Source: Cryomorphaceae bacterium
GTDB taxonomy: Bacteria; Bacteroidota; Bacteroidia; Flavobacteriales; Flavobacteriaceae
DNA: 52,624 nucleotides
Direction of reading: 5' to 3'
Assembly: GCA_003331265.1 (NCBI GenBank)
Contig: QOPV01000012.1
Span: 1-52,624 of the forward strand
This document shows positions 6,812-31,681 of the stretch, piece after piece. Position 1 is the stretch's first letter; every line of letters begins with the position of its first letter. Under the pieces are notes generated by a model, which searched no databases, was not told the origin of the DNA, and was given only the letters and a program-made list of their open reading frames with translations. Made by a program: the position numbers and the translations under genes.

Positions 6812-8306
6812 ATGTCTTTTTCGTTCCTAAATACCGTTATGTCTTGGTTTTTAAAAAAGCGTATACATGAAATAGAATTATTTAAGAAATACCCCATTGA
6901 AGTTCAAAATGAAACCCTAAGTAATCTTTTAAAAAGTGCTCAAAAAACAGAATTTGGAAATAAATATGACTTTAAATCAATAAATAATTAGTAGAGTTCC
7001 AATAAGTAATTACGAAAGTTTTTATCCTTTTATTGAAAGATCAATAAAAGGGGAACAAAACATTTTTTGGAGTGAGCCAATAAAATGGTTTGCCCAGTCA
7101 AGTGGAACTACAAATTCAATTAGCAAGTATATTCCAGTAAGTAATGACACATTAGAAAAGTGTCATTTTCAGGCAGGTAAAGATGCTTTGTGTCTTTATA
7201 TTAATAATAATGAGAACTCAAATTTATTTTCGGGTAAATCTTTAAGACTTGGTGGAAGTAAAAAATTATATGAAAATAATAATCATTTTTTTGGTGACTT
7301 ATCTGCAATATTAATAGATAACTTACCTATTTGGGCTGAAATGATAAGTACGCCAAATAATAAAATTTCATTAATGAATAAATGGGATGAAAAAATTGAG
7401 GCAATCATAAAAAATACGATCAATGAAAATGTAACAAGTCTAGCGGGTGTTCCATCATGGATGCTTACTCTTTTAAATAATGTTTTGATTCACACCAAAA
7501 AAACAAATATTTCGGAAATATGGAGCAATCTTGAAGTTTATTTTCATGGTGGAGTTAATTTTAGCCCCTATAAACAGGAGTTTAAAAAAATACTTCCAAG
7601 TAACATACATTTTTACGAAACCTATAATGCTTCTGAAGGATTTTTTGCTTTACAAGACCAAAATAACTCAGAAGAACTCCTGCTAATGCTAGATTATGGT
7701 ATTTACTATGAATTTTTAGAAATGAATAATTCTGAGATTATAAGTGATATACCCATAAATTTATCAGACGTAAAAAAAGGAGTTAATTATGCTATAATTA
7801 TTTCAACTAATTCTGGTTTATGGAGATACAAGATTGGAGATACTATTAAATTCACCTCGCTTAATCCTTTCAGAATTCGAATTACTGGAAGAATAAAAAG
7901 TTTTATTAATGCATTTGGAGAAGAATTAATAATTGAAAACGCGGAAAAAGCCCTAGAACAAACATTATTAAGTCATAAAATAAATATTGTTGAATACACG
8001 GTCGCACCTTTTTTTATGAATAATAAAAAATCTGGATTTCATCAGTGGTTGATAGAATTTAAAAACCCTCCGAATGATTTAATGAAATTTAAAAAAGAAC
8101 TTGACATCAACCTTCAAAATCTGAATACTGATTATAAATCAAAAAGGTTTAAGAATATTACCATGTCAGAAATTGAAATTGTTACAGCTAGAGAAAATCA
8201 ATTTTACGATTGGCTCAAGGCTAAAAAGAAACTTGGTGGGCAAAACAAAGTTCCAAGACTTTGTAATGATAGAAAATTAATGGATGAATTGTTAAAATTA
8301 AATTAA
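6812..8306 (+). pseudogene. GH3 auxin-responsive-promoter family protein, broken near the 5' end
   Basis: GH3 proteins belong to the acyl-adenylate-forming superfamily; the bacterial members have no settled substrate. From ATG 6812 one frame encodes MSFSFLNTVMSWFLKKR and about 40 more residues ending ...GNKYDFKSINN, then hits two TAG codons (6989-6994). The next frame continues the same protein without a gap in sense: RVPISNYESFYPFIERS from 6993, the ATP-binding IKWFAQSSGTTN, and on to a normal end at 8306. About 437 residues lie downstream of the break. The change is in the AT-rich stretch 6976-6992; it could be one extra base or a small deletion. No ATG in the second frame lies close to the break. 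The body has no other stop, so the lesion is recent or is a sequencing or assembly error. The last four bases overlap the convergent clpX. Confidence 0.82.
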
Positions 8307-28657: not shown

Positions 28658-30097
28658 TTAAAATTCTTCCCAAAAATTGGTTTTAAATTCATCCTCATAT
28701 TCTGGTAAAATTTTATTCTCCTCTGTTAAATTCTCAAACTCATTTAAATCAATAGGTTTTGATTGAAAAACCCGTAGTTCCACATTATTTAAAGCATTAA
28801 CAATCAGATCCAGATTAAAAGAAATCTGATTTTGTTTTCTTCTTCCCTTAACAAATTTATTTTTTTCAATAATTTTAAATGGCCTATCAATTCCTGCTTT
28901 TGAGCCTGATGATACCTGAAAATAAGTCAATGAATATTTTTCATTGTTAAGTTTTGAAAAAACCATTCTCCCTTCAACTAAATAATTGTCCGATGAAATC
29001 CCAAGTAGCTTAACCTTAAATAAAGATTTAACATTTTTAAAATCAATTCTTACTACTGCGAAATCGTCCGAGTTGATATGTAGAGTCCCTTTATAATCTT
29101 TCGAACCTTTTGGTTGGAAAGTAATTACATAAACCAGCTGATTACCAAGATATGTTAGTTCTGGGCTGCTAAGCTCGTATCTATTAGATTTTAAAATAAA
29201 ATCTAAATCAGTTGCATCATTATAAAAAAGGTTTGAATAAATATTTGAAATTCTTCCTTTTATAGAATTAGCAAAGTTTTCTTTCCTTTTTATCTCGGCA
29301 TCTTTAGCTTTTTTTAAGGCCTCTTGATTTGTACTATCAATATCCCATAGACCATCAAATTCTAAATCCCCTGAGAATGGCAATAGACCCGATCTAATTT
29401 TAAAATAAGAATTAGATTTCAGACTTTTCTTAAGAGATTCTTCTAACTTTGAATTTAAAGATTCTAGTATTTCGTCGTCTTTTTTATAAGTTTCTCTCGA
29501 CTTGATTAGATTAATCTTCTGATTTTCTTCCTCTAAATTACCATAGTAATAAGATAAAACCTCAGTGGCAGATGAATTTTCTTTTGGTAGATTTTGGAGT
29601 AAACTATCAATTAATAAATCATCAACGCTATCAATTGATGATTTAAATTTATTAATTTCAAACTTATCAATTAAGCTTTTATATTCTTTTCTATAGAAAA
29701 TTTTATTTTCGGATAAATCAGTTTGATAATTTTGAGTTAATCCTGCTTTTACTTTTTCAATTATCTCCTCTGAACTGAGATCTCTATTAGTCAGTATTAC
29801 ATTATTTAGCTCAATTGGCTTGGGGCTTAAAAAAACTATACTGTCTTTGAATTGATTTAAAGAAAAAGAAATTTTATTATAACCCATCGAAGATATAAAT
29901 AAAGAATCTTCATCTGTTAATTCATTCTTTATTAATTCAAAATCTCCATTTTCATCAGAAATAATACCACTACTGTTTGAAAAATAAACAGTTGCAAATG
30001 GTATTGGAGAAAAGGAGAGTGAGTCTAATACTTTAACCGTTACAGACTGAGCATTTAAATTAACAAAAAATAATAAAAGTAATATAGATTTTTTCAT
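28658..30097 (-). CDS. CarboxypepD_reg-like domain outer-envelope protein
   Basis: A 479-residue secreted protein. The ATG at 30097 gives MKKSILLLLFFVNLNAQ, a clear signal peptide; it lies two bases after the stop of the preceding frame, and an in-frame TTG five codons upstream would only add residues read from that gene. Residues about 20-95 form a carboxypeptidase-regulatory-like (transthyretin-like) beta domain (VLDSLSFSPIPFATVYFSN, then GDFEL). The rest (100-479) is a DUF-type region with long charged helices and beta segments (ELTYLGNQLVYVITFQPKGS) seen in Bacteroidota envelope proteins without known activity. It is the last gene of the PadR operon. Confidence 0.83.
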   Translation of the reverse strand: MKKSILLLLFFVNLNAQSVTVKVLDSLSFSPIPFATVYFSNSSGIISDENGDFELIKNELTDEDSLFISSMGYNKISFSLNQFKDSIVFLSPKPIELNNVILTNRDLSSEEIIEKVKAGLTQNYQTDLSENKIFYRKEYKSLIDKFEINKFKSSIDSVDDLLIDSLLQNLPKENSSATEVLSYYYGNLEEENQKINLIKSRETYKKDDEILESLNSKLEESLKKSLKSNSYFKIRSGLLPFSGDLEFDGLWDIDSTNQEALKKAKDAEIKRKENFANSIKGRISNIYSNLFYNDATDLDFILKSNRYELSSPELTYLGNQLVYVITFQPKGSKDYKGTLHINSDDFAVVRIDFKNVKSLFKVKLLGISSDNYLVEGRMVFSKLNNEKYSLTYFQVSSGSKAGIDRPFKIIEKNKFVKGRRKQNQISFNLDLIVNALNNVELRVFQSKPIDLNEFENLTEENKILPEYEDEFKTNFWEEF

Positions 30098-30099
30098 GA

Positions 30100-30612
30100 T
30101 TAGAAAACCCAATTAAAATAATAAGACTTATTCTCAAACCCATTAATCCAATATGGTAAAAGATCTAAGTCCTGCAAAATTAAAATTATATTAGGAACAG
30201 AAATAGATGTTATAATTAAAAAAATAATCCATAAAAAAATCAAAAATATACTAAAATTAGAATTTGATTTCTTTTTAAATAACACATAAAATGACGTTAT
30301 AATTGTAAGCAATATGGTTAAAACTAATAATAAAGTTGAAAATATTATAAAGTAATTTGGAATTGCGTTTAAAAGTTCAAAAAATTCAGGGTCTTGACTT
30401 GGTGATATTTCGTTTAATAATATCTTTAAAAGAATAAATAATAAAACTCCACAAATTGAAGTGAATATTAAAGCAAATACAAAAAATATTGTTTTTAAAA
30501 TTAAAACTCCAATATTTAAAAAAGCATTAATTATTGGAGCTAATAGTCTAAAGGGAAATAAAAATATTTTTGTTAAGGTGTTTTCTGAATTATTTAAGTT
30601 TCCCGTTTTTTT
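30100..30612 (-). CDS. PspC-domain protein, C-terminal membrane part in the -1 frame
   Basis: This frame is open from inside the A-run at 30614-30606 to a TAA at 30100-30102, about 170 codons. It has no ATG; its only common start codon is a TTG at 30312, which would cut off most of it. It encodes an amphipathic opening and then at least three strongly hydrophobic segments (for example FLNIGVLILKTIFFVFALIF and NYFIIFSTLLLVLTILLTII). That is what follows the PspC domains in full-length Bacteroidota PspC proteins (about 400-600 residues). So it is best read as the second half of the pspC gene joined by a -1 frame change, not as an independent gene. Confidence 0.75.
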   Translation of the reverse strand, partial: KKTGNLNNSENTLTKIFLFPFRLLAPIINAFLNIGVLILKTIFFVFALIFTSICGVLLFILLKILLNEISPSQDPEFFELLNAIPNYFIIFSTLLLVLTILLTIITSFYVLFKKKSNSNFSIFLIFLWIIFLIITSISVPNIILILQDLDLLPYWINGFENKSYYFNWVF

Positions 30613-31352
30613 TTAATAAAATCTTCAAGATTGGATAAATTTACATTGAATCCTGACATATTCATTTTTTGCCCGATGGTTTTGGCCTCTTTAGTAAAAA
30701 ACCATAGCAGTAGGTAAAACATCAACCCTGCACCACCAAAAAATAAACTAACCACAAAAACAACTCGTATTATATTGACATCTAGCTTGAGGTAGTTAGA
30801 AAGTCCTTTTGCCACTCCACCAAATATTCCATTTTCTTTATCTCTAAAAAGAATTTTTCTCAAATTAGGATCAAAATCTTTTGATGGAATTCCTATCCAC
30901 AAAATGACATATAAAATTAAATTTAAAGGAACAGCAATAAAAAATATAATCCTTATGATTATTGGATCAATTTTAAAATATTCGGCTATCCCTGAACAGA
31001 CCCCAGCGATGATTCTATTACTTGAATCTCTAAATAGTTTATTACTTTTTTTCTCCTCTTTGGAGCTGTCTTTTTCCATATCATTGTAGATCTCTTTAAA
31101 ATCATCTAATGATCCCATAATTTCAATCATTTCTTTAACATCATCTAAATTGATGCACTGTTTGCTTGATGAAATTTTTGATGAGAAGTTCTCAGCTATT
31201 CTAAGTTCAAAATCTTTAATAATTTCAGAATCATTATCAATTTTAGAAAAATAAGTTTTAATTGAATTTAAATACCTGTTCAACACCTCATAAGCGCCGT
31301 CTTCAATATTAAAAATTGAGTAACCTATATTAATTGTAAATGTTTTATTCAT
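30594..31352 (-). CDS. PspC-domain protein, N-terminal part (frame interrupted)
   Basis: A 252-residue frame: a short N-terminal regulatory-like region (1-100) then two PspC domains. The first is LFRDSSNRIIAGVCSGIAEY with a membrane helix ending WIGIPSKD; the second is LFRDKENGIFGGVAKGLSNY with a helix ending LLLWFFTKEA. PspC domains sense envelope stress in the phage-shock system; in this phylum they are linked to PadR-type regulators. The frame stops four codons after a run of nine A residues (minus strand, 30614-30606), while the next frame carries the expected C-terminal membrane half (30100-30612). It overlaps padR by four bases (ATGA). See the separate entry and finding for the break. 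Confidence 0.9.
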   Translation of the reverse strand: MNKTFTINIGYSIFNIEDGAYEVLNRYLNSIKTYFSKIDNDSEIIKDFELRIAENFSSKISSSKQCINLDDVKEMIEIMGSLDDFKEIYNDMEKDSSKEEKKSNKLFRDSSNRIIAGVCSGIAEYFKIDPIIIRIIFFIAVPLNLILYVILWIGIPSKDFDPNLRKILFRDKENGIFGGVAKGLSNYLKLDVNIIRVVFVVSLFFGGAGLMFYLLLWFFTKEAKTIGQKMNMSGFNVNLSNLEDFIKKKRET

Positions 31353-31681
31353 TTTGTAGTTTTTAATAATTTCTTCACCGATGCATCTAATTCATTCCAT
31401 GAAACAATCAATTCCTTTATATGTAAAGTTCCCTCATAAGTGATAGAATAATATTTCCTAGGTGGCCCCTGATCTGATTCACGCCAAACATGCTGGATGT
31501 ATCCAGATTTCTTAAGCCTATTTAACAGAGGATACACGGTGCCTTCAACAACTATTATTTTTGAATTTTTTAGTTCTTCAATAATGTCAGATGTATAAAC
31601 CTCATCTCTTGATATTATTTGCAAAATGCAGAATTCTAAAAGACCTTTTCTTATCTGTATTTTAAAATTTTCAGAACTCAA
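31349..31681 (-). CDS. PadR-family transcriptional regulator
   Basis: A 110-residue PadR protein. Its winged helix-turn-helix is easily followed: GLLEFCILQIISRDEVYTSD, then the recognition helix region VVEGTVYPLLNRLKKSGYIQ, the wing WRESDQGPPRKYYSITYEG, and a short C-terminal dimerisation helix. PadR proteins usually repress their own operon and a neighbouring membrane or envelope gene. It lies between the small lipoprotein (seven bases upstream) and pspC (four-base overlap). Two copies of an operator-like element sit at the operon promoter (31927-31956). Confidence 0.95.
   Translation of the reverse strand: MSSENFKIQIRKGLLEFCILQIISRDEVYTSDIIEELKNSKIIVVEGTVYPLLNRLKKSGYIQHVWRESDQGPPRKYYSITYEGTLHIKELIVSWNELDASVKKLLKTTK

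Follow-up and report, generated by a model that had tools for sequence, protein, structure and literature searches.

A poly(A) tract retained in pspC across a Flavobacteriaceae genus is a candidate slippage site for short and long protein forms

The window, i.e. the whole stretch of 52,624 nucleotides that was analysed, belongs to a genome (G000; 1.53 Mb, 80% complete, 43 contigs) of a genus of small-genome, streamlined Flavobacteriaceae, which we take to be marine. On the minus strand it carries a pspC gene that changes frame at a run of exactly nine A residues (A9, positions 30606 to 30614), the candidate slippery site. The zero-frame ORF (30594 to 31352, minus strand) encodes 252 residues, comprising an N-terminal region and two PspC domains and ending in KKKRET. 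Across the run it reads ATT AAA AAA AAA CGG GAA ACT TAA, with the stop as the fourth codon past the run. The -1 frame (30100 to 30606, minus strand), which encodes the C-terminal part of a longer form, has a TAA where the run begins and is open beyond it for 168 codons, until the TAA at 30102-30100; in the ORF reading of the window these codons include no Met. The run includes the heptamer A AAA AAA in phase. All of this agrees with an earlier note on this DNA, which had described a frame change at nine A residues, a stop four codons further on, a -1 frame open for about 170 codons without ATG, and the slippery heptamer.

The first part of the protein matches the Pfam family PF04024 (PspC) in two stretches with 137.3 bits, against a cut-off of 25. 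The first PspC domain comprises residues 105-157 (30882 to 31040, minus strand, as computed from the best PF04024 stretch) and the second approximately residues 166-225 (30678 to 30857, minus strand, the best stretch of TIGR02978, below the cut-off of that model). In the N-terminal region no HAAS domain was matched in Pfam with any of three fragments. The C-terminal part is very hydrophobic and matches PF22571 (LiaI-LiaF-TM_PspC) with 21 bits, below the cut-off of 27; six of nine aligned relatives match the same family at E-values up to 1, the best at 1.1e-4 (22.4 bits). Within the short form itself, residues 125-157 and residues 187-220 are strongly hydrophobic, and as judged from hydropathy it is a membrane protein and not the soluble-tailed form that had been suggested. 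The stop codon of a PadR-like regulator gene (31349 to 31681, minus strand) overlaps the pspC start (ATGA), and the two genes probably form part of the same operon. On the other side, a gene with a CarboxypepD_reg-like domain (28658 to 30097, minus strand) has its ATG 2 nt past the stop of the long form, and its translation could therefore depend on the long form. This 2-nt gap (window 30102-30097) is present in G000, G010 and G021 only, of 14 loci.

A pspC match is found in 16 of the 22 genomes of the genus. One of these matches lies at a contig end and one is weak, leaving 14 loci that cover the tract, the window included; a fifteenth, from another genus, was obtained in a search of the family, in which 185 of 199 genomes gave some match. 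Among the six genomes of the genus that gave none, one is 93% complete, and pspC looks dispensable in some species. The run is A9 in the window, A10 in 12 loci and A11 in two. Twelve of the 14 other loci encode a full-length PspC of 402-424 residues in a single continuous ORF, and the intact PspC of G021, used as a query, matches both window pieces, with 81% and 80% identity. The gene in the window is thus one gene that is split, as the earlier note had it, and not the counterpart of homologues followed by a separate gene. A second gene that starts independently, for which a 70-residue ORF starting with TTG inside the C-terminal part might be cited, is ruled out by the continuous ORFs of the 12 relatives, and the -1 frame moreover lacks an ATG.

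The C-terminal part of the window lineage shows dN/dS values of 0.19 against G010 and 0.17 against G021, compared with 0.24 for the intact pair G010-G021, and so appears to be under purifying selection. These values rule out old decay to a pseudogene and agree with the earlier remark that both halves look intact; they do not date the break, and a very recent one is compatible with them. The two remaining loci of the comparison, L012 and L007, from G016 and G017, are broken downstream of the tract, at a distance of about 20 nt in G016 and about 70 codons in G017. Both assemblies consist of few long contigs. The break in G017 may be an error, because many other breaks are flagged in this genome (11 rows when G000 proteins serve as queries and 14 when those of G021 do, some of which are mere differences at protein ends). 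Neither break would obviously be rescued by slippage, which speaks against a slippage reading of the tract.

The lengths in the relatives, ten A residues in 12 loci and eleven in two, bear directly on the nature of the window's A9. The earlier note had left a choice between slippage and a lost A, and had held that ten residues in relatives would point to an error or a strain mutation; by that criterion the window copy is a strain mutation or a read error. It is a one-base variant, which may be a real allele or a misread. This part of the earlier alternative therefore stands, alongside slippage, which the retention of the tract supports. A rival reading is that the A9 stems from a mistake in sequencing or assembly, or from a one-base strain mutation of recent date, in an otherwise ordinary gene whose tract has no programmed use. 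We regard this reading as possible but doubtful. It is consistent with the A10 or A11 of all 14 other loci and with the dN/dS values, which a recent break would leave unchanged. A mild undercalling of long runs would also fit the numbers of runs of ten A or T, which are 10 in 808 kb of G000, 19 in 495 kb of G021 and 16 in 560 kb of G017, and in one terminator-like stretch G000 has a T9 where G017 has a T10. Against it, G000 contains 11 coding runs of 10-11 A or T in open frames, and no other break at a homopolymer was detected in this genome in scans with 218 proteins of G021 (225 kb) and 265 of G017 (268 kb). It also leaves unexplained why the tract is retained in all species although such runs are avoided (see below).

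The only clear frame breaks of G000 in these scans are those in pspC and in a GH3-family gene at window position 6988, and the assembly is not prone to indels. The GH3-family gene (6812 to 8300, plus strand) is not interrupted at a homopolymer; near 6988, where G017 is the only relative available for comparison, the window has 14 nt fewer. Runs of exactly ten A or T are about 2-3 times rarer in the sampled part of G000 than in the two genomes of the same genus. A systematic collapse of A10 to A9, which had been suggested by a census of 400 kb with a single run of ten, is weakened by the 10 runs in 808 kb and further by the 11 intact coding runs of 10-11. Several other candidate breaks at homopolymers were discarded. 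Those at L032, L033 (two sites) and L040 fall between one protein of the relative and another and are gene boundaries, while at L037 the relative's protein continues across the site, and it is elsewhere, at residue 340 of the 421-residue query, that the G000 protein ends early. Stops at protein ends were flagged in L041, L049, L103 and L106 and at window 13101-12376; those in the four loci likewise represent gene boundaries.

To place the tract in its genomic context, long A runs were counted in the sampled sequence of three genomes, G000 (808 kb, about half of the genome), G021 (495 kb) and G017 (560 kb). Coding A10 runs number 6, 8 and 7, respectively, where codon shuffling predicts 31.2, 19.8 and 20.4, so that they are 2.5-5 times rarer than expected; in the sampled ORFs runs of A11 and longer are depleted as well, whereas A8 runs are not. 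The avoidance is also visible in codon choice. Lysine is encoded by AAA at a frequency of 0.84-0.86 genome-wide, from which about 60% of the sites with three lysines followed by a codon starting with A would be expected to consist of AAA throughout. The observed numbers are 3 of 46, 5 of 36 and 10 of 41 in the three genomes, with overlapping sites in runs of four lysines counted separately, here and in the ortholog pairs. Where such a site is conserved between orthologs, both copies are all AAA in 0 of 8 cases for G000-G021, 0 of 11 for G000-G017 and 2 of 9 for G021-G017. These two are pspC and dnaX, and the other seven sites of this pair are interrupted in both genomes. The pairs with the window do not include pspC, because its next codon is CGG. 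When coding runs of ten or more A residues are considered in any phase, 4 of 27 ortholog comparisons among the three partly sampled genomes keep ten or more; these are pspC and dnaX, each in both directions, and none of the 16 other tracts is retained. For pspC of G017 the comparison with the window gives nine A residues.

Against this background, the three lysine codons of the pspC tract are AAA at all 15 loci (45 of 45 codons), in spite of the synonymous changes that could have interrupted the run. An alpha/beta hydrolase with the same peptide, FIKKKT, is all AAA in only 1 of 20 loci, and in the 13 genomes that contain both genes pspC is all AAA in 13 and the hydrolase in none (11 with AAG, two with a lysine lost). 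Four control genes were followed through the genus; at five sites taken together they keep the three lysines in 51 rows, and one of these rows is all AAA. The control rows comprise 20 of the 30 loci fetched for C1 (the other 10 being relatives at 27-31% identity), 21 of 21 for C2, 22 of 22 for C3 and 15 of 20 for C4, where four of the five omitted loci keep no KKK and one misses the site; a further KKK site of C1, near its start, is present in one of 20 rows and lies outside the 51. Since the controls C1-C4 were picked from conserved KKK sites without an A10 in the sampled genomes, the shuffling, KKK and ortholog-comparison tests are less biased than this one. A simulation of neutral exchange between AAA and AAG on the pspC tree, covering three codons in 15 taxa, gives P = 0.002 for the absence of any AAG at the observed codon use, and P = 0.00016 at an AAA use of 0.80. 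Within pspC alone the contrast is modest, as the nine other invariant lysine columns hold AAG in 13 of 135 codons and one of them is also entirely AAA. By these comparisons the genus maintains the pspC tract despite its avoidance of such runs, which suggests that two proteins, one short and one long, are made by way of it.

Of the coding A10 tracts in the compared orthologs, a single further one is retained, in a protein of 558 residues that is identified as DnaX (TIGR02397, 370 bits, cut-off 250). Its tract of A10-A15 (L144:13453-15126, minus strand, and L255-L273) is all AAA in 19 of 19 loci, these being the loci used out of 30, with pieces and relatives of 31-36% identity set aside, and stops lie close by in both other frames. 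It is likely to be the gamma/tau slippage site of the genus, although as a term of comparison for pspC it is one where slippage is itself presumed. Outside the genus, the linker NISNIEKKI and its variants in PspC proteins of other Flavobacteriaceae genera are encoded with an A9 in 9 of 28 loci (L080, L081, L088, L093, L095, L096, L098, L100 and L101), which are also 9 of the 11 loci with an E/Q-K-K-I peptide. The pspC junction gave no match as a pattern in viral_contigs and no megablast match in phages.

These observations lead us to propose, with a probability of roughly 0.5, that the pspC tract is an evolutionarily maintained slippage site, probably of RNA polymerase, from which a short and a long form of the protein would be made. 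RNA polymerase would slip on the tract, mostly by adding A residues, and would thus produce mRNAs in different frames. One frame would give the long protein of about 402-424 residues, in which about three more membrane helices follow the two PspC domains. The other frames would run into a stop in a dozen codons or so, and a short protein of about 250-262 residues with the two PspC domains only would result. Species with A10 would obtain the long form without slippage and the short form through it; the window's A9 is the reverse case, in which the short form is read directly and the long form would require slippage. One A added to an A10 leads to a stop within 7 codons, and one added to the window's A9 leads into the long frame, so that either allele should make both forms, in differing proportions. 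In all 15 loci the frames other than that of the C-terminal part stop within 12 codons. Such early stops in both frames occur at 59-61% of random coding positions, however, and do not by themselves speak for slippage. At least nine A residues in the sense strand, a hallmark of slippage genes of the dnaX type, are present in 15 of 15 loci.

Alternatively, the two forms might arise when the ribosome shifts to the -1 frame on A AAA AAA. The heptamer is in phase, both tRNA-Lys genes detected within the half of the genome that was sampled carry the anticodon UUU, and the dnaX gene of E. coli is described, in the available parts of PMC5009743, as shifty through its sole tRNA-Lys. The heptamer, on the other hand, needs less than a run of 9-11, and by eye no conserved upstream element resembling a Shine-Dalgarno sequence is present. 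In addition, none of four sequences shows RNA structure downstream of the tract beyond that of shuffled sequences (z-scores -0.72, 0.35, 1.10 and -0.26), which favours the polymerase over the ribosome. We consider frameshifting by the ribosome unlikely. It is highly improbable that the tract is a contingency locus, at which replication slippage would alter the tract length and turn the long form on in some cells and off in others. A long homopolymer and an off-frame allele in one of 15 loci would fit such a locus, but in the 14 other loci, distant ones included, the tract is in frame with the codons that follow (one genome per species), and dnaX shows the same conservation.

Slippage at a maintained tract would make pspC a candidate new slippage gene of the dnaX kind; to our knowledge, few cellular genes besides dnaX have retained a poly(A) slippage site in the course of evolution, and no paper on slippage in pspC was among the literature matches listed. 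Rather tentatively, we further propose that pspC is, besides dnaX, a second cellular gene with such a site retained by a whole genus, and that the site sets the ratio between a sensor-less form, with two PspC domains, and a sensor-bearing form with the extra transmembrane domain. The length of the tract would set the default, and a one-base change would flip the ratio and not kill the gene. The role of each form is put forward here by inference. If correct, slippage would set protein ratios in a signalling system, that of an envelope-stress gene in streamlined marine bacteria, and this would account for the continued function of a gene that looks frameshifted, where automatic annotation would otherwise call the window's pspC two fragments or a pseudogene. 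A search for coding A10 tracts retained by orthologs offers a simple screen for AT-rich genomes; applied here to about half of the window genome and, for two relatives, to roughly 0.5 Mb each, it returned dnaX and pspC only.

Among known systems, bacterial RNA polymerase slips on long A tracts, mostly by adding bases, according to the excerpts of PMC5574713, which also report for Buchnera that RNA-seq revealed no frame-restoring slippage, a result that by analogy would count against slippage in pspC. In the passages of PMC5009743 and PMC1088944 at hand, the A9 of Thermus dnaX yields about 50% short product, and endosymbiont genes show 12-50% corrected transcripts (PMC5009743); section 7 of PMC4256274 gives about 20% shifted product for the A11 of Citrobacter tssM1. 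As far as these sources describe it, the Thermus thermophilus dnaX gene resembles pspC of the A10 species in having a sense-strand A tract late in an intact ORF, with near stops in both other frames (PMC1088944, PMC5009743); there the long form comes from plain reading and the short form from slippage, and corresponding short and long products are predicted for pspC. Unlike dnaX with its A9, pspC encodes a membrane-stress protein and has A10-A11 in the relatives. The window's A9 copy, with a stop in the plain frame soon past the tract and a continuation in another frame, rather recalls tssM1 of Citrobacter rodentium and mxiE of Shigella, in which slippage is needed for the longer protein, as stated in the parts of PMC4256274 and PMC1088944 available. 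Unlike in those genes, the off-frame state is seen in a single copy of the 15, and at the tract the other 14 are in frame. With regard to function, the window pspC has no HAAS match in Pfam and its LiaI-LiaF-TM match is below the cut-off, unlike the HAAS-PadR-type envelope-stress operons described in the available sections of PMC11237479, but it shares with them the PspC domains, a LiaI-LiaF-TM-like region and a neighbouring PadR-like regulator. Two forms with and without a sensor-like membrane part, encoded beside a PadR-like gene, would recall the PspC/PadR signalling pairs described there.
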